33,338 bases of DNA from Candidatus Bipolaricaulota bacterium. GTDB lineage: Bacteria; Bipolaricaulota; Bipolaricaulia; RBG-16-55-9. The stretch's first letter is position 1. Each line of letters starts with the position of its first letter. Under the pieces are notes generated by a model. That model did not search any database. It was not told the origin of the DNA and saw only the letters and a list, made by a program, of their open reading frames with translations. Below are positions 2,212-33,338 of the stretch, piece by piece. The stretch covers positions 1 to 33,338 of the forward strand of contig JALSGO010000009.1 in assembly GCA_026982655.1 (NCBI GenBank), read 5' to 3'. A program made the position numbers and the translations under genes.

Positions 2212-4428
2212 TCAGTCCTTTTGGAAGAGGTCCAGCCCGATTCCCCGGTTGATCTTGACTTCGGTGAGGGTGTACTCGCCCGTGAGTTCGCCGTCCTGGA
2301 AGGTCTTCTGCACGAAGGGCACCCGGTAGCCGTCTATCTCCCGGTAGTCGGAGAAGAGCGTTTTTTCTGTGCGCTCCCCGCTCTCCTCGACGATCCGGAG
2401 GAGGCGGAGCGGCTCGCCTCCGTAGTAGAAGCGGGCCGTGTTCCCCTGCGCGTCCGTCACCTCCAGGACCTCGGCTACGAGGGGGCTCCCTTCGACCTCC
2501 ACCTCCTCGGTCCCTCGATAGGCGAACCGAAAGCCCTCGTGGCCGATGAAGAGAGGCGTAAACAGCGGATCGAAGGCGATCCCCTTCTGGATCTCGGCCA
2601 CGAGTTCGGCGGGCATCTCCTGCCAGCGGCCTCCCTGCCGGATCCAGCCCTGCTCGCCGTTCCACAGGTAGACGACCTTGAACCGCTGCCCGCCGAGGGA
2701 GATCGTGAGCTCCTGGCGCATCATCTGCGGCAGGACGATCCAATTCTCAACGACAACGTCGAAGCTCTGGCCCTGCTGGTAGAGCGTTCCCTCCCCCTTG
2801 GAGTAGTAATCCTTCAGCCGTTCCAGCGCGGCCAGTCCGCCTTGGGCGGCGATGACCCTCTCCAGCAGCGCGCGGGCCTCCTCGTCCATTTGGGCCTTCC
2901 AGGCGACGGTCAGGGGCTGCCTCGCCCGCGCCCGGGCCGCTTTGAACTCCTCGTACGCGATCCCCCGCGCGTCGACGGGGGAGAGCCAGTCCACCACCTG
3001 AACGTCCGCCAGGGACACCCCCGGCACGAGCTCCGCGATCCCCTGCTCCTCCAGGGACTCCAGCACCGAGAAATCCCCTAAGAGCGCGATCTGCAGCTCC
3101 TCGGGGCGGAAGTGCTCCGCGATGAGCGCGTTGACCTCCTCCCGGGTGTAGGCGCGGACGGTCTTCTTGAAGTTCCGGATCCAGTCGAGGCCGCGATCGT
3201 AGAAGAGGGCGTTCTGCACCGTGTGCGCCAGGCCGTTTAGGGTCTCCAGGCGGAGCACGTAACTCCCGGCGAAGTAGCCCTGGGCGGCCTCCAGCTCGTC
3301 CGCGGTCATCCCCTCCCGTTGGAATTTCTCGATCTCTCGTAGCAAAAGCTCCAGAGTGGAGCGAAGCTCCTCGCTGCGGGTAAACGTCCACACCACGAAG
3401 TACCCCGGGAAGCGGTAGCTGGGGAAGCCGCTGGAGACCGCGTACGTCTTGCCCTCCTCGGAGCGGACCACCTGGATGAGCCGCGAGGAGAACGCGCCAC
3501 CCCCTAAGACGTAGTTCGCCAGCTGGACCGGGAGGTAGTCGGGATCGGAGACGGCCAGCCCCCGATGCCCCAGGGCGATCTGGACCTGGGTCTGGCCCGG
3601 CTTGTGGACGAAGCGCGCCCGCCGCTCCTTGAGAGGGGTGAGCGCGACGGTGCGGCGCTCGGATACGGGGCGCTCCTCCCAGTCGGCGAAGGCCTCCTTC
3701 ACCTTGGCGATGAGGGCCTTCGGGTCGACGTCCCCGGCGATCACCAACGTGGAGACGTTGGGGCGGTAGTACGCCTCGTGGAAGCGCACGAGGTCCTCGC
3801 GGGTGATCGCGTTGAGGGTCTCCTCCGTCGTCACGAAGCCCAAGGGGTGGAAGCCCCCGAAGAGGAGCTGCTTGAGGTGCTCGCGCACGAGTTCCCCGGG
3901 GTCGTCCTGGGTCGCTTTGACGCTTCCTATCAGGCGGTTGCGTACGATCTCCATCTCCTCCTCGGGGAATGTGGGGCGGATCACCACGTCCGCCAGAAGC
4001 TCCAGCCCCAGGTCGAGGTCCTGGGAGAGGACTTGGGCCGTGACGGTCGCGTAGTCGGTGGCCGCCGAGGCCGAGAGCTGCCCGCCCACGAAGTCGATCG
4101 CCTCGGCGATCTCCTCGGCGGTGCGCGTCTCGGTCCCCTGGGTGAGCATCGCGGCCACGAACTCCGCCAGGCCCGCCTTCGTCTTGAGATCCCGGACGCT
4201 CCCGCCCTCGGCGACTCTCAAATTGAAGTGGACGATGGGCAGCTGCCGCTGCTCGATCACCACCACCCTCAAACCGTTCTCCAGGGTCTCTTGGTAGATG
4301 GAGGGCAGGCGGATCTCCTCCGCCCCTTGCGCCTCCTGGGCCCGCAGGGCGGAAAGCTCCGGTCCGCCCACAACCCCCAGCAGTCCCACTAGGATCGCCG
4401 CAAGCACAACGCGCATCCCGCGGGTCAT
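2212..4428 (-). CDS. M16 family peptidase, catalytically inactive (no HxxEH), with C-terminal LolA-like/outer-membrane-lipoprotein-like domain
   Basis: 738 aa; signal peptide; GLAEFVAAML where HLxEH is expected; paired with the upstream active M16 gene; beta-rich C-terminus. Confidence 0.85.
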   Translation of the reverse strand: MTRGMRVVLAAILVGLLGVVGGPELSALRAQEAQGAEEIRLPSIYQETLENGLRVVVIEQRQLPIVHFNLRVAEGGSVRDLKTKAGLAEFVAAMLTQGTETRTAEEIAEAIDFVGGQLSASAATDYATVTAQVLSQDLDLGLELLADVVIRPTFPEEEMEIVRNRLIGSVKATQDDPGELVREHLKQLLFGGFHPLGFVTTEETLNAITREDLVRFHEAYYRPNVSTLVIAGDVDPKALIAKVKEAFADWEERPVSERRTVALTPLKERRARFVHKPGQTQVQIALGHRGLAVSDPDYLPVQLANYVLGGGAFSSRLIQVVRSEEGKTYAVSSGFPSYRFPGYFVVWTFTRSEELRSTLELLLREIEKFQREGMTADELEAAQGYFAGSYVLRLETLNGLAHTVQNALFYDRGLDWIRNFKKTVRAYTREEVNALIAEHFRPEELQIALLGDFSVLESLEEQGIAELVPGVSLADVQVVDWLSPVDARGIAYEEFKAARARARQPLTVAWKAQMDEEARALLERVIAAQGGLAALERLKDYYSKGEGTLYQQGQSFDVVVENWIVLPQMMRQELTISLGGQRFKVVYLWNGEQGWIRQGGRWQEMPAELVAEIQKGIAFDPLFTPLFIGHEGFRFAYRGTEEVEVEGSPLVAEVLEVTDAQGNTARFYYGGEPLRLLRIVEESGERTEKTLFSDYREIDGYRVPFVQKTFQDGELTGEYTLTEVKINRGIGLDLFQKD

Positions 4429-5918
4429 GGCAGCGTCTCCTCCTCTCCCTCTCCTTCCTCTCCCGGCTGCAGGGTGACCAGGGTGAGCGTCTCGTCCACG
4501 AGGTACTGCCGGGCTACGCGTTGGACGTCCTCGGGGGTGACGTCCGCGTAGCGCTTAGCCCCCTCCAGGAAGAGCTTGGCATCCCCTCCGATGACGGCGG
4601 CCTCGCCGATCGCGCTCCCCACCCCGCTGATCGAGTCCAGATTGAACACGTACTGGGCCGTCAGTTGGTTTTTCGCCTTCTGCAGCTCGCGCTCCTCTAG
4701 GGGTTCCTCCTTGAGCCGGTCGATCTCCCGGAGGAGGGCTTCCTTGACGGCCACAGGGTCCTTGTCGGGGGTGAAGAAGGCGAAGACGAGCATCATCCCC
4801 AGGTCTTTGTAGATGAGGGGGACGCCCCCGGCGGCGATGGCCAGCTTCTGCTCCCGCACCAGCGACTTGTTGAGCCGGGAGCTCTCCCCCGCCGTCAGGA
4901 TCATGCCCGCGATCTCGAGGGCCGGCAGATCGTCGTGGCCCGCGCCCGGGAGGGGGTACCCGCCCAAGACGGCGGGGAGCTGGACGGGCATCGTGAGCGT
5001 CTCCTCCCGCCGGGCCGTCGGCTCCGGCGGCTCGATGACGACCTCCGGGGGCTCGGGGCCTCGGGGGATCGGCCCAAAGTACCGCTCCGCCAGCTCGAAG
5101 GCCCGCTCGGGCACGACGTCCCCCGCCAGGATGAGCACGGCGTTGTTGGGGACGTAATACCGCCGATAGAATCGCTCCAGGTCCTCCAGGGTGATGGTAT
5201 CGAGGTCTTCGGGGGTCCCGGCGGCGGTCCAGGCGTAGGGCGTCCCCTCGAAGGCCAACGCCCGGAAGCGGTCGAAGGCCTGGGAGACGGGGTTGTTCTC
5301 CAGCCGCAGGCGATATTCCTCCTTGACGACCTCGCGTTCCGAGTCGAGGTGCTCCTGGGTGAGCACGAGGTTCTGCATCCGCTCGGCCTCCAGGCGCAGG
5401 GCCAGCTCCAGCGCCTCCGTGGGAACGACGTCGTAGTAGCCCGTCGCGTCCTCGCGGGTGAAGGCGTTGTTGATCCCCCCGACGCGGTCGATGAGGCGGG
5501 CGTGCTCCTCCGGCCCGACGTTCTTCGAGCCCTTGAACATCATGTGCTCCATCAAATGGGCCAAGCCCCGCTTCCCGGGCACCTCGTTCCGCGAGCCCAC
5601 CCGATACCAGACGTTAACGGCCACCACGGGGGCCGTGCGGTCCTCGTAGACGATCACCTCGAGGCCGTTGGGGAGCGTGCGGGTGTGCAACCGGGGCTGG
5701 GGTTGGGATTGGGGTTGGGCCTCCTCCGAGGGCTCGGGGGCGACGGCGGAGGGAGGAGCCGTTCGGGGGCCGAGGGACTGCCAGATCAGAATCCCGACCG
5801 CCGCGAGGATCGCCGCGGCCAGCACGAGGAGGCCGGGCGAGATCTTCCGCGCCCGGGGCTGGGGCGATTTCTGCGGGGTGTCCGCACCTTCGGGTTGCTT
5901 GCCCTCTGTGGGTTCCAT
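4425..5918 (-). CDS. M16 family zinc metallopeptidase, active form, N-terminally membrane anchored
   Basis: RGLAHLMEHMMFKGSKNVGPEEHARLIDRVGG; HLMEH motif; N-terminal TM GLLVLAAAILAAVGILIW; 4-nt overlap with the downstream gene. Confidence 0.92.
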   Translation of the reverse strand: MEPTEGKQPEGADTPQKSPQPRARKISPGLLVLAAAILAAVGILIWQSLGPRTAPPSAVAPEPSEEAQPQSQPQPRLHTRTLPNGLEVIVYEDRTAPVVAVNVWYRVGSRNEVPGKRGLAHLMEHMMFKGSKNVGPEEHARLIDRVGGINNAFTREDATGYYDVVPTEALELALRLEAERMQNLVLTQEHLDSEREVVKEEYRLRLENNPVSQAFDRFRALAFEGTPYAWTAAGTPEDLDTITLEDLERFYRRYYVPNNAVLILAGDVVPERAFELAERYFGPIPRGPEPPEVVIEPPEPTARREETLTMPVQLPAVLGGYPLPGAGHDDLPALEIAGMILTAGESSRLNKSLVREQKLAIAAGGVPLIYKDLGMMLVFAFFTPDKDPVAVKEALLREIDRLKEEPLEERELQKAKNQLTAQYVFNLDSISGVGSAIGEAAVIGGDAKLFLEGAKRYADVTPEDVQRVARQYLVDETLTLVTLQPGEEGEGEEETLP

Positions 5919-6750: not shown

Positions 6751-7893
6751 TTAGGAGCTGCTCTGCTGGTACTGGCCGTCGACCTCGCCCTTGGCCCGGA
6801 CGAAGAGCATCTTCCCCGCGTCGGTCTGCAGGGAGCTGGAGACCACCGCACGGACCTTCTTGCCGATGTAGCGCCGCCCGTTCTCCACCACGACCATGGT
6901 CCCGTCGTCCAGGTACCCCACCCCCTGACCGATCTCCTGGCCGCGGTCGATGACTTCGATCTCGAGCTCCTCGCCGGGGATGAACGGAGGCTTGAGGGAC
7001 TTCGCCAGCTCGTTGACGTTGAGCACCTCCACGCCGGAGACGCGGGCTACCTTGTTGAGGTTGTAATCGGTCGTGAGGATCTTCGCCTTCAGGTCCTTGG
7101 CCAGGCGGATGAGCTTACGGTCCACCGAGGGGACCTCGGAGACGTCCTCCTCCCAAAGGATAATGGGGGTGTTCGGGAGCTTTTGCAGCTCTTCGAGGAT
7201 GTTGAGTCCCCGACGTCCCTTGCGACGGCGCAGGCCGTCTTGGGAATCCGCAATCCGCTGGAGCTCGCCCACCACGAAGTGAGGGACGTAGAGGGGGCCC
7301 TCCAGAAAGCCCGTCCGGACCAGGTCGTAGATGCGCCCGTCGATGATCACGCTCGTGTCCACCACCTTGGGCGTCTTCCCCCCGGGCGAGGACGGGTCGG
7401 AGGGGGACGGGGCAGCGTCCCCGAAGACGAACGCTCCGAGCAGATCCTCTTGGCTGTAGCCGATGCGAAACCCTAGATACGTCAAGAAGAGGAGGAGTCC
7501 GGCTTGTGCGAGTTGGAGGCCGAGGTTCGGCCGACCCGTCCCGAAGAGCAGCTCCAGGACCGCGTACCCCAGCAGACCGAACAGCGTTCCGATCAAGCCG
7601 AGGAGGCTGCCCTGAAGGAGTGCGACGCCCTTGCCTGCCTCTACGGCCTGCAGGGCGGCGCGCACGGCAGCCCGTGCTGCAGCCAAGATCGACGCCCCGA
7701 CGATGGCGCCCACCAGCGCGTTCAGCCATACCGGTCGGATCCACTCCTCGGGGACGACGGCCGGGGCCGTGGGCAACGGATCTCCCGGGACGACCCACCC
7801 GATGGGGACCTGGCTCGCCCCCAAGAGGGCCCCCAGCGCGGACGCTATCAGATACGGCCCGATCCTTCGGATACCTCGCGTTACCGTCTCCAT
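6751..7893 (-). CDS. PIN/TRAM domain-containing integral membrane protein (YacL-like)
   Basis: N-terminal TM helices; VVDTSVIIDGRIYDLVRTGFLEGPLYVPHFVVGELQRIADS PIN motif; C-terminal TRAM-like region. Start chosen at METVTRG (7893) because a promoter lies between 7893 and the longer ORF start 7989. Confidence 0.88.
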   Translation of the reverse strand: METVTRGIRRIGPYLIASALGALLGASQVPIGWVVPGDPLPTAPAVVPEEWIRPVWLNALVGAIVGASILAAARAAVRAALQAVEAGKGVALLQGSLLGLIGTLFGLLGYAVLELLFGTGRPNLGLQLAQAGLLLFLTYLGFRIGYSQEDLLGAFVFGDAAPSPSDPSSPGGKTPKVVDTSVIIDGRIYDLVRTGFLEGPLYVPHFVVGELQRIADSQDGLRRRKGRRGLNILEELQKLPNTPIILWEEDVSEVPSVDRKLIRLAKDLKAKILTTDYNLNKVARVSGVEVLNVNELAKSLKPPFIPGEELEIEVIDRGQEIGQGVGYLDDGTMVVVENGRRYIGKKVRAVVSSSLQTDAGKMLFVRAKGEVDGQYQQSSS

Positions 7894-7942
7894 CGTCCTC
7901 TGCGGTCTCTTGCCCTTCTCTTCCCCGTTCGAGCGCTCCGGT

Positions 7943-7971
7943 ATCTTACCGATCCCTTGACGGGGAGGCAA
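7943..7971 (-). promoter_or_regulatory. Candidate promoter for the yacL-like gene: TTGCCT-N17-TAAGAT
   Basis: AGGCAA at 7966-7971 and ATCTTA at 7943-7948 on the plus strand, 17-nt spacer. Confidence 0.5.
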
Positions 7972-8060
7972 CGATTCTGTTACCTTCAATCAGGACACAA
8001 AGGGGGCTTGCGCGGGTGGTGAGAGGGCAGATCCCGATCCGACAAAGGTCATTGCGGGGT

Positions 8061-8966
8061 ATGGAGCCGGAGACGTGGACGGTCAGGCGGATCTTGGAGT
8101 GGACGTCGGGATATCTGCGTCGCGGCGGGGTGGAGACGGCCCGCTTCGAAGCCGAGTTGCTCCTGGCCCACGCGCTGCGCACCGAGCGCCTCGACCTCTA
8201 TCTCCATCCGGACCGCCCCTTGAGCGAGGCGGAGCGGGCCCGCTTCCGCGAGCTCATCCGGAAGCGGCGCGAGGGGGTCCCGTTGGCGTACCTGCTGGGC
8301 ACGGTGGAGTTCTTGGACGTGACGCTGCGGGTGGACCGGCGGGCGCTTATTCCCCGCGTCGAGACGGAGGAGCTCGTCGAGCTCCTCCTCCAGGACTGCG
8401 ATGCACAGGCGCAAGCCCAGGGACCGGGTTGGCGGGTCTTGGATCTGGGTACGGGCTCCGGGGCCATCGTGATCGCCCTCCTCAAGCGCTGGCCGCAGGC
8501 GCGGGCCGTGGCCGTAGATCGATCACGGGACGCCTTGGAGCTGGCCCGGGAGAACGCGCGCGCCAACGGCGTGGACGGGCGAATCCACTGGGTGCAGACG
8601 GATTGGCTGCGGGGCCTGCGCGCTTCCTTCGACCTCATCGTCTCCAACCCGCCGTACGTCCCCTCGGAGGAGTACGCCCACCTCCCGCGGGAGGTCCGGG
8701 TGTACGAGCCCCGCTTGGCGCTGGACGGCGGCCCCCGCGGACTGCGGGAGCTGGCGCGCATCGCGGAAGAAGCCCCCAAGCATCTGACCCCCGGCGGACG
8801 GCTCTATCTGGAGATCGGCGCTCAGCAGGCTGAGGACGTCCGGCGCCTGCTGGAGGAGACCCGAGCGTTCGCCTCCGTGGAGGTCCTGCAAGACCTATCG
8901 GGGCGGGACCGCTTCGTGCGCGCCCGCGGGCGCTCCCGAGGGCGGGAGGCGGCAGGATGCCCGTGA
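8061..8966 (+). CDS. prmC: Peptide chain release factor N(5)-glutamine methyltransferase
   Basis: VLDLGTGSGAIVIAL ... FDLIVSNPPYV (NPPY motif), ALIPRVETEELVE; ATG 8061 within ORF 7506-8966. Confidence 0.92.
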   Translation: MEPETWTVRRILEWTSGYLRRGGVETARFEAELLLAHALRTERLDLYLHPDRPLSEAERARFRELIRKRREGVPLAYLLGTVEFLDVTLRVDRRALIPRVETEELVELLLQDCDAQAQAQGPGWRVLDLGTGSGAIVIALLKRWPQARAVAVDRSRDALELARENARANGVDGRIHWVQTDWLRGLRASFDLIVSNPPYVPSEEYAHLPREVRVYEPRLALDGGPRGLRELARIAEEAPKHLTPGGRLYLEIGAQQAEDVRRLLEETRAFASVEVLQDLSGRDRFVRARGRSRGREAAGCP

Positions 8967-9685
8967 TGGTTCAGATCGCGGAGCTGGCCGTACGAGAAGG
9001 TAAGAGGTTCCTCTTCCGGGATCTGAGCTTTCGACTGGGACGGGGGGAGTGGGCCTGCCTGGTGGGGCCGCCGGAGCGGGGTCGGGCTCTGCTGGAGGTC
9101 CTCTGCGGCCTGCGGAGGCCCGAACGCGGTCAGGTGCTCGTGGACGACCGAAACGTCATCCGCCTCCGCCCGGAGAAGCTGCGGCTCCTCCATCGGCGCT
9201 TGGGGATCGTCTTCGGGGAGCTGGGGCTGCGCCGAGGCACGACTCCGGAAGGATGCATCATATTCAAGCTTCGCGCGTTAGAGCTCTCGGCGGAGGAAGC
9301 CCAGGCCCGCGCCCATCGGGCACTCTCGCTCGTGGGCCTCGGTTCGCCCCCCGACGCCGAGGTCCCCGAAGGGACCCCCAACGCGCAGGGCAGCAACCGG
9401 CAGCGGCGCGTGGAGGAGCTGAGCCCCGGGGAGCGACGCCTCCTGCAGTTGGCCGTGGCCCTCTGCGACGATCCCGTGCTCCTCCTGCTCGAGGAGCCCT
9501 TGGAAGGGCTCTCCCCTCCCGAGCAGCGGCGCTACCTCCGAGCGCTCGAGGAGGTCTTCCTGCGCCGGAGGTTGACCCTCCTGATGACGGCCCGCGATCC
9601 GGAGCCCCTACGGGGGAGTCCGGCCCTCCTCTACGCCCTCGAGCCGGAAGGAATCACGCCCTGGGCCGGGGAGGAGAGGTTCTGA
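8957..9685 (+). CDS. FtsE-like ABC ATP-binding protein with degenerate Walker A/B, Q-loop and H-loop
   Basis: Overall ABC/FtsE layout but VGPPERGRALL (Walker A), GIVFGELGL (Q-loop), LSPGERRL (signature), LLLLEEPLEG (Walker B), MTARDP (switch). Confidence 0.8.
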   Translation: MPVMVQIAELAVREGKRFLFRDLSFRLGRGEWACLVGPPERGRALLEVLCGLRRPERGQVLVDDRNVIRLRPEKLRLLHRRLGIVFGELGLRRGTTPEGCIIFKLRALELSAEEAQARAHRALSLVGLGSPPDAEVPEGTPNAQGSNRQRRVEELSPGERRLLQLAVALCDDPVLLLLEEPLEGLSPPEQRRYLRALEEVFLRRRLTLLMTARDPEPLRGSPALLYALEPEGITPWAGEERF

Positions 9686-9686
9686 G

Positions 9687-10652
9687 ATGAGCAGCACGCC
9701 CTATCTGTTCCGGGAGCTCCTGCGCTCCCTCTCCTTGGGGAGCTGGGCACTGGCGGCGCTGGCGGTCGGGGCGCTGGCCTTGGCGCTCCAGCTGGTTGCC
9801 GTAGGATCCCTCCTGCGGGAGCCGCGCTCCGCGGCGCCCCGGGAGGAGCTGATCGCCGTCCCCTTGGGGACGCTCTCCCAACGGGAACTCGCGGAGGTCC
9901 ACCAACGGCTTGCAGAAGACCCCGACATCGCCGGGGTGCGCTTTCGCTTCCCTCAAGATCCCCGGGGGGAGGCCCTGGGATACTATCGGATCACGCTGCA
10001 CGAAGGGATCTCTCCCGACACCGTGATCGAACGCCTTGTGGGCTGGGGGGTCTTCGAGCGCGTGGAAGAGCCGCAGCCGGAGCCGAAGGGGCTCGTGCGG
10101 AGCTGGGCGGAAAGTCCGCAGGGGAGGTGGCTCCTCCTCGGGGGGATGCTGGCGATCGCGGGCCTCGCCCTCGGCCTCTTGGCAGCGAGCCTGCGCGCCG
10201 CAGAGAGGAGCTTCCGGGCGGAGCGCAAGCTGCTGGAGCTCTCGGGCGTCGATCCCGCGGTGATCCGTCGGCCCTTCGTGCTGCTCGGGGGACTGTACGC
10301 CGCGCTCGGCGCGCTCCTGGCCGCCGCCCTCGCCGCCGTGGAGGGGGCCTGGATCGCCTCGAACCCCTCCGGCCTCGGGCTGAAGAGAGTGCTCCCGGAG
10401 CTGTTCGAGAAGGGGGCGTTTGTCCGGTTGGGGGTGCGGGCGCTGCTGCTGGGAATCCCGCTCGTGGGGATCGGGGCGGGACTCGGGCAGCTCCTCGCTC
10501 GGGGCGCTTACAGATATCCCAGCCCGCGCAGCCGCTCCCGGATCTCCTCCTCCTCCTCGGGGGAGAGCGGGGAGCCCTCCGACCCCGACCGCGACCCCTC
10601 CAACGCGGAGAGACCCTCCTCCGCGTCCGCGCCGAAGTCCCCCGGACCTTGA
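9687..10652 (+). CDS. FtsX-like permease, four predicted TM helices, Ser/Pro-rich C-terminal tail
   Basis: One N-terminal TM, extracytoplasmic region, three C-terminal TMs; starts 2 nt after the FtsE-like gene. Confidence 0.75.
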   Translation: MSSTPYLFRELLRSLSLGSWALAALAVGALALALQLVAVGSLLREPRSAAPREELIAVPLGTLSQRELAEVHQRLAEDPDIAGVRFRFPQDPRGEALGYYRITLHEGISPDTVIERLVGWGVFERVEEPQPEPKGLVRSWAESPQGRWLLLGGMLAIAGLALGLLAASLRAAERSFRAERKLLELSGVDPAVIRRPFVLLGGLYAALGALLAAALAAVEGAWIASNPSGLGLKRVLPELFEKGAFVRLGVRALLLGIPLVGIGAGLGQLLARGAYRYPSPRSRSRISSSSSGESGEPSDPDRDPSNAERPSSASAPKSPGP

Positions 10653-12283
10653 TCCTGAGCCGCCGTCCGGCCCCCGTCGAGGGTTTCCGAAGTCGAAGCC
10701 GAGCCCACGGGGTGCCGCGCCCGGAGCGCCTCGCTCGCCCGCCCGTCGAGCCCTGGAGGCGGGGGGACCCCCAGGAGTTCACAGATCGTGGGGAAAAGGT
10801 CCAGCAGCCGCAAACGAACCCTCCCTCGGGGCAACCCCGCACCGCAGCCCAGAAAGACCCCATACAGTCGGTGCCAGCCGGAGTGGGCCACCGCGTGCGT
10901 CACCGGGCGGTTCGAGAGGAACTCCGAGAGCCCCATGGGGGAGTGTCCCTCTGCGGGGAGGAAGACGAGGTCGGGGCTCTGAGGGTGCCGTTCGGGGCCG
11001 TATAGCTCCTCCGCCCGGAAGAGGCGCTCGACCACGGGCTCCCCCGTCCAGGGGTTGCGCCACTCTCTTAGCGCTTCCTCAACCTCCTCCAAGATCTTCG
11101 GCGCGCAGCGAGGGGGGACGATCCCTTGGGGCTCGCGGCCCCGGCGGTTCAGAAAGATCTGTCCTACGTTCCCGTAGGAGTAGGCCACCGTCCGGGACCA
11201 GTCCACGTTCGCGGTCGAGAGGGCGAAGCGGCTCAGCCACCGATACGCCTGCGCCGGATCTCCGCTCCCCCGGCCCAAGAGCCCCAGCCGAGCCTCCCAG
11301 GGATAGAGGTTCTCGGGGACGACCCCCAGCTCGTAGAGGGCCCTCTTCACCCGGGTGGGAAGGTTCCCCCGCAGGCGCAGAAAGCCCTGCCGCAGGAGCC
11401 AGGTGTTGAGGTGGAGGTTGTAGCGATGGGGGCCGAAGCCGTGGTCCGAGATCACCCAGAGGGTGTCACGCTCGTCCAGCAGCGAGCGGAGCTCGCCCAC
11501 GAGCGCGTCGGCCCGGCGATAGACCTCGAGCACGGGCTCCTCGTCGGGGAGGGGGGACCCATAGCGGGGCCGGGGGTGCCGGTCGAGGGTGTGCCACATC
11601 TGGTGCTGGACGGAGTCCGTCTCCATCACATGGGCCAGGAAGACGTCCCAGTCCTTGCGGGCGGCCAGATAAAGAATAGCCCGGGCGCGCAGCTCCAAGG
11701 ACCGTTGAAGCCGGGAGAACCACCCCGCGGCCCGACGCCCGCCGGGCCACGGCGGCGGCGCGAGGGGGTAGCGCCCTCCCAGCGCCTCCTCCAGCTCCCG
11801 TTGGAGTGAGGGCGGATGGGTGTAGGGACGCCCCGGCGGGGTCAGGAGATCCCCCACGGCGAACCCCCCGCCGCCTCCGCCCCGATCCCGAAACCGAAAC
11901 GGGTACGTGAGGGGGAGGCTCACGACGCCCACCCGTTGGCCGTGGGCGCTCAGCCACTCCAGGAGCGTGGGCGAGGGGAGGGCGGAGCCGTCCACCGGCT
12001 CCAGGGCGTACGAGTGAGGACGGCGGCGGAGCCACTCGCACACCCCGTGCCTCCCGGGAGAGAGCCCCGTGAGGAACGACCCCCAGGCCGCGCCCGTGAC
12101 GGGCGGGATCACGCTCTCCAAGGGGCCGAAGGCCCCTTCCTCCATGAGCCTCCGGAGGTGGGGCAGGCGGCCCTCGGAGGCCCAGCGCTCGATCAGCTCG
12201 GGGGAGGCGCCGTCCAACGCCAGGATGAGCAGTCTGCGGGTACGATCCCGATAGCGGGTGCCTCCAGACATCCCTCCAGACAT
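10508..12283 (-). CDS. Alkaline phosphatase superfamily / type I phosphodiesterase-nucleotide pyrophosphatase family protein
   Basis: LLILALDGASPELIERW...PPVTGAAWGSFLTGLSPGRHGV...METDSVQHQMWH...LWVISDHGFGPH; C-terminal EEEEEIRERLRGLGYL. Confidence 0.88.
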   Translation of the reverse strand: MSGGMSGGTRYRDRTRRLLILALDGASPELIERWASEGRLPHLRRLMEEGAFGPLESVIPPVTGAAWGSFLTGLSPGRHGVCEWLRRRPHSYALEPVDGSALPSPTLLEWLSAHGQRVGVVSLPLTYPFRFRDRGGGGGGFAVGDLLTPPGRPYTHPPSLQRELEEALGGRYPLAPPPWPGGRRAAGWFSRLQRSLELRARAILYLAARKDWDVFLAHVMETDSVQHQMWHTLDRHPRPRYGSPLPDEEPVLEVYRRADALVGELRSLLDERDTLWVISDHGFGPHRYNLHLNTWLLRQGFLRLRGNLPTRVKRALYELGVVPENLYPWEARLGLLGRGSGDPAQAYRWLSRFALSTANVDWSRTVAYSYGNVGQIFLNRRGREPQGIVPPRCAPKILEEVEEALREWRNPWTGEPVVERLFRAEELYGPERHPQSPDLVFLPAEGHSPMGLSEFLSNRPVTHAVAHSGWHRLYGVFLGCGAGLPRGRVRLRLLDLFPTICELLGVPPPPGLDGRASEALRARHPVGSASTSETLDGGRTAAQDQGPGDFGADAEEGLSALEGSRSGSEGSPLSPEEEEEIRERLRGLGYL

Positions 12284-27463: not shown

Positions 27464-27916
27464 ATGGCGACGATACCGGCACCGGGAAAGCGCGTAGAAG
27501 CCGTGATCAAGCTGCAGATCCCCGCGGGCGGGGCGACCCCCGCGCCGCCGGTCGGCCCCGCGTTGGGCGAACACAAGGTCAACATCATGGACTTCTGCAA
27601 GCGCTTCAATGACGCCACCAAGGACCAGGAGAAGGGCCTGCTCATCCCGGTCCAGATCTACGTGTATCACGACAAGAGCTTCGACTTCGTGCTCAAGAAG
27701 CCGCCGGCCTCGGAGCTGTTAAAGCGCGCGGCGGGGATCCCCAAGGGCTCCGGGGTCCCGCACACCCAGAAGGTGGGGCGCGTCACGAGGGAGCAGCTCA
27801 AGAAGATCGCCGAGATCAAGATGCCCGACCTCAACACGGACGACCTCGAGGCCGCCATGCGCATCCTCGAGGGGACGGCGCGCAACATGGGCATCGAAGT
27901 GGTGGAGGGGAGCTGA
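27464..27916 (+). CDS. rplK: 50S ribosomal protein L11
   Basis: [70 protein letters not shown]. Confidence 0.98.
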
Positions 27917-27921
27917 CGACC

Positions 27922-28662
27922 ATGGCCACGAAGACCGAGCTACGACTGCGGAAGAGACACGGACGCCGCTACGCGGAGGTCGCCCAGAAGGTCGACCGCT
28001 CCCGCCTCTACTCGGTGGACGAAGCGATCGCGCTGCTCAAGGAGACGGCGAGCGCCCGGTTCGACGAGGCCGCCGAGGCCGTCTTCCAGCTCGGGGTCGA
28101 CCCGCGACGCAACGAACACCGCATCCGGGGGACGGTCACCCTCCCCCACGGGACGGGGCGGTCCGTCACCGTGCTGGCCTTCGCCAAGGGCGAGGCCCTC
28201 AAGGAGGCCGAGGAGGCCGGGGCGGACTACGTCGGCGGCGAGGATCTGGTGAAGAGGATCGAGGAGGGGTGGCTCGAGTTCGACCGCGTGGTGGCCACGC
28301 CCGACATGATGGGCATCGTGAGCCGTCTGGGCCGCATCCTGGGTCCGCGGGGCCTGATGCCCTCCCCGAAGACGGGGACGGTCACCAAGGAGATCGGCCA
28401 GGCCATCAAGGAGATCAAGCAAGGGAAGCTCGAGTTCCGCGTGGACGAGTACGGCCAGGTCCACTCGATCTTCGGACGGGTCTCCTTCCCCGAGGAGCAC
28501 TTGAAAGAGAACCTGTTAGCGCTGGCGGCGGCCATCTTGGACGAAAAACCCGAAGACGTCCGGGGCCGCTACGTCCGGCGCGTGGCCGTCTCCACCACCA
28601 TGGGGCCGGGCATCAAGGTCGACCCGGATGAGGTCGTGCGCCTGGCAGGGGAGAGGATCTGA
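27922..28662 (+). CDS. rplA: 50S ribosomal protein L1
   Basis: [37 protein letters not shown]...[31 protein letters not shown]. Confidence 0.98.
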
Positions 28663-28663
28663 G

Positions 28664-29332
28664 ATGCCGACCGCGGAAAAAGAGCGCATGCTGGAGGAGT
28701 TGGAAGAGCGCTTCCAGCGCTCGCAGGCGCTGGTCTTTACGGGCTTTCGGGGGCTTACGGCCAACGAGATGGTCGAGCTCCGCAGGGAGCTTCGCAAAGC
28801 GAATATAGAGTACAAGGTCATCAAGAACCGGCTGGCGAAGATCGCCGCCCAGCGGGTCGGGCTCGACATCGACCCCCTCCTGGACGGCCCCACCGGGATC
28901 TGCTTCGGCTACGACGACCCCGCCTTGGCCTTCAAGGTGGCGGTGGAGTTGGCCAAGCGCTTCGAGAAGTACGAGGTCCGGGGCGGGATCAGCGAGGGGC
29001 AGCTCGTGGACGCCGAGGGGGCCAAGGAGTTAGCCTCCCTGCCCTCGCGCGAGGAGTTGTTGGCGCGCCTGGCCGGGGCCTTCCAAGGGCCCATCCAGGG
29101 CTTCGCCGGCGCCCTCAACGCCTTGATCCGGGAGCTCGTGACCGTCCTGAACGAGGTGGCCAAGGTGAAGCCCGACGAGACCGCCCCCGCCGCTGCGGAA
29201 ACCGCCGGAGCCGAAGCGGGGCCCGCAGCCGGGGGAGCGAAGGCGAAGGCCGAAGCCCAAGAGCCGGCGGAAGGACAACCCGAAGAACCCGAAGAACCCG
29301 AGCAAGCGAAAGAGGAGAGTGAAGCATCATGA
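28664..29332 (+). CDS. rplJ: 50S ribosomal protein L10 with Ala/Glu/Pro-rich C-terminal tail
   Basis: [48 protein letters not shown]...; start ATG 28664. Confidence 0.95.
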
Positions 29333-29715
29333 CGATGACGGCGGAAGACATCCTCGAGGCGATCGACAACATGACGGTCAAGGACCTCCACGCGCTGGTC
29401 AAGGCGCTGGAGGAGAAGTACGGGGTCAGCGCCCAGGCCGCGGTGGCCGTAGCCGCGGTGCCCGGGGCCGCCGCCGGAGCGGCGGGAGCGGAGGCGGCTG
29501 CGCCCTCCACGGTGAAGGTCGTGCTCACGAACGCCGGCCAGCAGAAGGTCCAAGTCATCAAGAAGGTGAAGGAGATCACCGGCAAGGGGCTCAAGGAGTG
29601 CAAGGAGCTGGTGGACAACCTCCCCGCCGTGCTCAAGGAGGGCATCAGCCCCGAAGAAGCGGAGCAACTCAAGGCGCAACTCCAAGAGCTGGGCGCGGAA
29701 GTCGAAGTACAGTGA
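29329..29715 (+). CDS. rplL: 50S ribosomal protein L7/L12
   Basis: [29 protein letters not shown]...[56 protein letters not shown]; 4-nt overlap with rplJ. Confidence 0.97.
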
Positions 29716-29813: not shown

Positions 29814-33167
<3,354 letters not shown>

Positions 33168-33178
33168 CGGGGCCTACC

Positions 33179-33338
33179 GTGACGCTGGGCGACCTCCTCA
33201 ACCCGGTCACCGTCTCACTGGCCATCTTCGTTGTCGCGTACATCCTCCTGTCTCTCGATAAGATCCATCGGACGATCATCAGCCTGGCGGGCGCCACCGC
33301 GATGGTCTTCGCCGGGAAGTTCTTGGGGTTTAGCGATA
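33179..33338 (+). CDS. Probable ArsB/NhaD-type (ion transporter superfamily) permease, N-terminal fragment truncated at the window edge
   Basis: Manual translation from GTG 33179: MTLGDLLNPVTVSLAIFVVAYILLSLDKIHRTIISLAGATAMVFAGKFLGFSD; hydrophobic segment followed by DKIHRTIISLAGA, reminiscent of ArsB/NhaD N-termini. Confidence 0.6.
   Translation, partial: MTLGDLLNPVTVSLAIFVVAYILLSLDKIHRTIISLAGATAMVFAGKFLGFSD

Follow-up and report, generated by a model that had tools for sequence, protein, structure and literature searches.

Separation of the RNA polymerase genes rpoB and rpoC throughout the phylum Bipolaricaulota

The window analysed here is an entire contig (C9; 33,338 nt) of a Bipolaricaulota MAG that comprises 169 contigs and 2.08 Mb. 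It carries the canonical upstream part of the beta operon, with rplK-rplA-rplJ-rplL at 27464-29715 on the forward strand (gene calls and order taken from the translations). The order nusG-rplK-rplA-rplJ-rplL-rpoB, described as canonical in a first-pass annotation of this DNA, was verified and lies on a single strand. The rpoB gene (29814-33167, forward strand) encodes an intact RNA polymerase beta subunit (NCBIfam PRK00405, score 1416.9 vs a cut-off of 896), which is 96% identical to the RpoB of a genome of the same genus (G062) and 83% identical to that of another family member; in a named search, the nearest RpoB proteins were those of Candidatus Bipolaricaulota/Acetothermia. As the first-pass annotation had stated, RpoB ends normally, at a TGA stop codon (33165-33167), and is separated by a spacer of 11 nt (33168-33178, forward strand) from the next reading frame, which starts with GTG at 33179 and is not RpoC. 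The gene expected directly behind rpoB in a canonical beta operon, rpoC, is missing from this position and from the rest of the contig. An Rfam scan of the window, of contigs C6 and C139 of the same genome and of five relatives' loci detected tRNAs only, with no known RNA leaders near the split.

The frame downstream of rpoB (33179-33338, forward strand; VTLGDLLNPVTVSLAIFVVAYILLSLDKIHRTIISLAGA...) comprises the N-terminal 53 codons of a permease of the ion-transporter superfamily and stops at the contig end, 33338. The 53-aa fragment alone gave no Pfam match. Its full-length orthologue, which occupies the same place in G062 (452 aa), matched CitMHS (PF03600, E 7e-84) and, weakly, ArsB, supporting the earlier description of the frame as the N-terminus of a membrane protein unlike RpoC. 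The permease orthologues scored 241-282 bits with Pfam CitMHS, and with Pfam ArsB (PF02040) 37 bits against 22 in one and 20 in the other; the NCBIfam model nearest to the G062 permease was MamN, with a score below its cut-off, and the NCBIfam arsB/NhaD models scored far below cut-off with the orthologues. The provisional name "ArsB/NhaD-like permease" is appropriate as regards the superfamily, but the protein is neither ArsB nor NhaD proper and is closest to the CitMHS/MamN type.

A search for rpoC elsewhere in the genome, proposed with the initial description, located the gene in two pieces, of which the 5' piece (472 codons) is terminal on contig C6 and the 3' piece (1,328 codons) is terminal on contig C139. 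A stretch of 270 nt is common to both contigs, with 4 mismatches and 0 amino-acid changes, and the silent nature of these mismatches shows that strain variation, and not biology, ended the contigs inside rpoC. Upstream of rpoC on C6 are a uvrD/pcrA helicase gene and a gene for a ThiI-like protein, followed by an hpf-like gene, and downstream of it on C139 are rpsL, rpsG, fusA, rpsJ and rplC with the remaining S10-spc genes. In G062 rpoC is whole, as an open frame of 1729 aa (93-95% identical) that has uvrD on its upstream side and rpsL on its downstream side. The possibility that a foreign rpoC contaminates the MAG was rejected, as the rpoC pieces match G062 at 93-95% and rpoB matches it at 96%. 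The proteins have the features of a functional RNA polymerase beta/beta' pair: the beta' active-site motif NADFDGDQ is present in P0003, and RpoB as well as the relatives' RpoC are full length.

The distribution of the split was surveyed in 100 genomes of Bipolaricaulota (the phylum formerly called OP1/Acetothermia). Both rpoB and rpoC were found in 98/100 genomes each and were adjacent in none of them; most of these genomes are fragmented MAGs and many of the non-adjacencies rest on the location of the genes on different contigs, so that direct evidence is provided by the inspected flanks and the one-contig genomes. Only in four genomes do both genes share a contig, at distances of 496 kb (G004), 664 kb (G005) and 342 kb (G072) in one-contig genomes and of 61 kb in G094. 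The flanks were inspected behind rpoB in about 37 genomes from nine families, none of which has rpoC there in up to 9 kb, and ahead of rpoC in 20. All the named Bipolaricaulota loci likewise lack rpoC after rpoB. Among the close relatives, four other genomes of the window's family show the same rpoB-permease junction, with gaps of 5, 8, 21 and 64 nt. One locus titled Neomarinimicrobiota (L082; JAJRVI010000067.1) groups inside Bipolaricaulota by RpoB and gene order and is probably mislabelled.

The adjacency of rpoB and rpoC is among the most stable of bacterial gene pairs, and it is usually rationalized by a need to make beta and beta' in balanced amounts and to assemble them at one place. In a sample of 47 families outside the phylum, with one genome each, rpoC lies directly after rpoB in 46, in agreement with the initial expectation that this order holds in nearly all bacteria; in two of the 46 (G124 and G131) rpoC is broken by a contig end, with its start behind rpoB, and one of the 46 is a confirmed natural RpoB-RpoC fusion. 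At L159 (G137:C77; 364-7956, reverse strand), outside the phylum, rpoB and rpoC are fused in a frame of 2,530 aa followed by rpsL; this fusion scores below the cut-offs of the Helicobacter- and Wolbachia-type fusion models and may represent a separate fusion event. In G112 (1.7 Mb, 99% complete), another genome from outside the phylum, rpoB and rpoC are separated by a single EF-G gene (3840-5858 of locus L158, G112:C34:83000-92000), with the three genes on the same strand, and it is possible that this arrangement is an early stage of separation. Named loci from outside Bipolaricaulota have rpoC after rpoB wherever the contig is long enough, with the exception of one from Lysinibacillus antri (L100; NZ_RYYR01000029), which has no rpoC within 8 kb downstream of rpoB. 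The RpoB encoded there (7305-11516; 1,403 aa) is extended at its N-terminus by about 230 residues with many E/R/A/K repeats, and its gene probably represents a second copy of rpoB in this genome.

The neighbourhoods of both genes are conserved within the phylum. Downstream of rpoB nearly every Bipolaricaulota family has a gene for a NUDIX hydrolase, which often shares a few bases with rpoB and is followed in several families by genes for the permease, a metallo-beta-lactamase-fold protein and PriA; the order rpoB-NUDIX-permease is also present in one-contig genomes, and in family f9 NUDIX is followed by other genes. The window's family lacks the NUDIX gene behind rpoB, and only weak paralogues (33-42% identity) were found elsewhere in this genome and its family, which shows that the gene was lost; this loss left the permease directly behind rpoB. 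The permease is a remnant of the ancestral downstream neighbourhood and not an inserted cause of the split.

Upstream of rpoC most families carry a gene for a small FmdB-type zinc-ribbon protein, a ThiI-like gene and hpf, and, the window's family aside, the fmdB frame adjoins rpoC in most of them; the encoded protein (e.g. L064, L070 and L075) has the form MPxYRYxCxxCG... KGSGFYTTDYR. Downstream of rpoC, the order of the str operon cluster (rpsL-rpsG-fusA), seen on C139, is kept in all families but f3. In that family (L063-L065, L067 and L068) rpoC is parted from rpsL too and lies in a promoter-fmdB-rpoC unit with a putative promoter, with ndk upstream of fmdB-rpoC in three of these five loci; its beta' gene is isolated from both ancestral neighbours.

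In 17 of 21 loci, which are not independent of one another, rpoC is preceded within 600 nt by a promoter-like site (sigma70-type consensus TTGnnn, 15-18 nt, TATA(A/C)T, in many cases with the -10 extended by TGn), vs 2.4% of control windows from the same loci; L066, L071, L074 and L077 gave no match. In the window's family the spacer before rpoC, otherwise poorly conserved, retains TTGnnn and TATACT at a distance of 16 nt, in most cases with a TGn extension of the -10, and family f3 shows a conserved TTTGCA ... TTTTTGCTATACT block ahead of fmdB-rpoC. Judged from this sequence conservation, rpoC seems to have its own conserved promoter, and some distant families may have another promoter-like site.

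The NUDIX gene after rpoB, fmdB before rpoC and rpsL-rpsG-fusA after rpoC fit one break exactly between rpoB and rpoC. It is highly probable that the rplKAJL-rpoBC-str string was broken a single time, early in the history of the phylum, that rpoC acquired a transcription start of its own, and that beta and beta' are translated from unlinked mRNAs. In a phylogenetic tree of RpoB (81 rows), obtained by a quick method, a single change of the label "split" is needed, and the branch that carries it has an SH-aLRT support of 100; the Armatimonadota neighbour was flagged as a long-branch join.

The break could in principle have occurred more than once at the same junction. Several independent splits within the phylum, or replacement of rpoC by a transferred copy at a new site, would account for neighbours that vary by family, as in f3 (ndk before fmdB-rpoC and no rpsL after) and f9, but this explanation is improbable given that the NUDIX gene and fmdB recur at the same positions in nearly all families, that rpoC retains its ancestral downstream genes (f3 excepted), which fits a break and not the import of rpoC, and that one change suffices on the RpoB tree. 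Even less likely is a small insertion, that is, one or a few genes such as those for NUDIX and the permease lying between rpoB and an rpoC located just beyond. Such an arrangement has a counterpart in the rpoB - EF-G - rpoC order of G112, and according to published work on this gene cluster the separation of operons often begins with the insertion of a gene (PMC8046335). As the present-day state, it was rejected on the evidence of the 9-kb flanks, free of rpoC, and of the 61 kb to 0.66 Mb that separate both genes where they share a contig, while gene insertion may have been the first historical step of the split. An assembly chimera that joined rpoB to an unrelated permease fragment, suspected from a fragmented MAG and from a permease frame cut after 160 nt by the contig end, a place prone to misassembly, was rejected as practically excluded by the same junction in independent genomes and by the rpoB-NUDIX-permease order in other families, one-contig genomes included. 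Of the two readings left open by the first-pass annotation, a genuine split or a wrong join, the former was upheld and found to extend beyond the lineage to the whole phylum; neither an rpoC a few genes downstream, in the up to 9 kb inspected, nor a chimeric junction, the two findings that the annotation had named as contrary to a split, was encountered.

According to the single-break reading, the left half of the string (secE...rpoB) would have ended up in front of the NUDIX - permease - metallo-beta-lactamase - priA block and the right half (rpoC-rpsL-rpsG-fusA-S10...) behind the hpf, ThiI-like and fmdB genes, so that rpoC would head its own transcription unit, usually promoter-fmdB-rpoC-rpsL-rpsG-fusA. 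The window's family would then have lost both the NUDIX gene and the fmdB before rpoC, placing the permease 11 nt from rpoB. In present-day cells rpoB would be transcribed at the end of the secE-nusG-rplKAJL unit, reading on into the NUDIX or permease genes, and rpoC at the head of the str-S10 unit, from a promoter of its own. Since rpoC would belong to a separate transcription unit, beta and beta' would be produced from unlinked mRNAs and their balance would be achieved by promoter strength, mRNA stability or protein turnover and not by operon co-transcription. Both units encode growth-regulated transcription and translation machinery, and thus a common growth control may roughly match beta and beta'; a fine balance would need subunit turnover or feedback. 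A more elaborate proposal, advanced only tentatively and judged rather unlikely, combines the ancestral loss of linkage with a dedicated, conserved promoter-fmdB-rpoC unit and an undescribed feedback or turnover mechanism that matches beta and beta', in which the FmdB-type zinc-ribbon protein might take part. The relation between operon order and complex assembly has been treated in general terms (PMC4742563).

As to its kind, the event is an operon rearrangement; its depth, its place inside rpoBC and its fixation in the whole phylum are unusual. Cyanobacteria and plastids have a phylum-fixed rearrangement of rpoBC in which rpoC is cut into rpoC1 and rpoC2, yet still lies beside rpoB, whereas in Bipolaricaulota rpoC is whole (about 1,640-1,770 aa) and has moved away. 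The fused rpoBC of Helicobacter and Wolbachia (NCBIfam PRK09603 and PRK14844) also departs from the ordinary rpoB-rpoC pair, but it yields one polypeptide, and the change in Bipolaricaulota is the opposite, a separation. In cluster reconstructions for other phyla, as far as the portions of that work considered here extend, breaks are placed at rpoBC|str and str|S10 and attributed to gene insertion followed by separation (PMC8046335). The Bipolaricaulota case resembles these in that identical genes in identical order lie on both sides of the break, but it differs in that those breaks, within the same portions, fall between operons and the present one falls inside the rpoBC operon and is fixed in a whole phylum. 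A literature search, with most subscription journals outside its scope, retrieved no report of the rpoB/rpoC split in Bipolaricaulota, nor is the split mentioned in either of the phylum's two founding genome papers (PMC3267732; PMC6092417).

Bipolaricaulota, as a phylum without rpoB-rpoC linkage since its origin, represents a natural experiment on whether this linkage is needed. In addition, the split is a rare genomic change that is usable as a synapomorphy of Bipolaricaulota.
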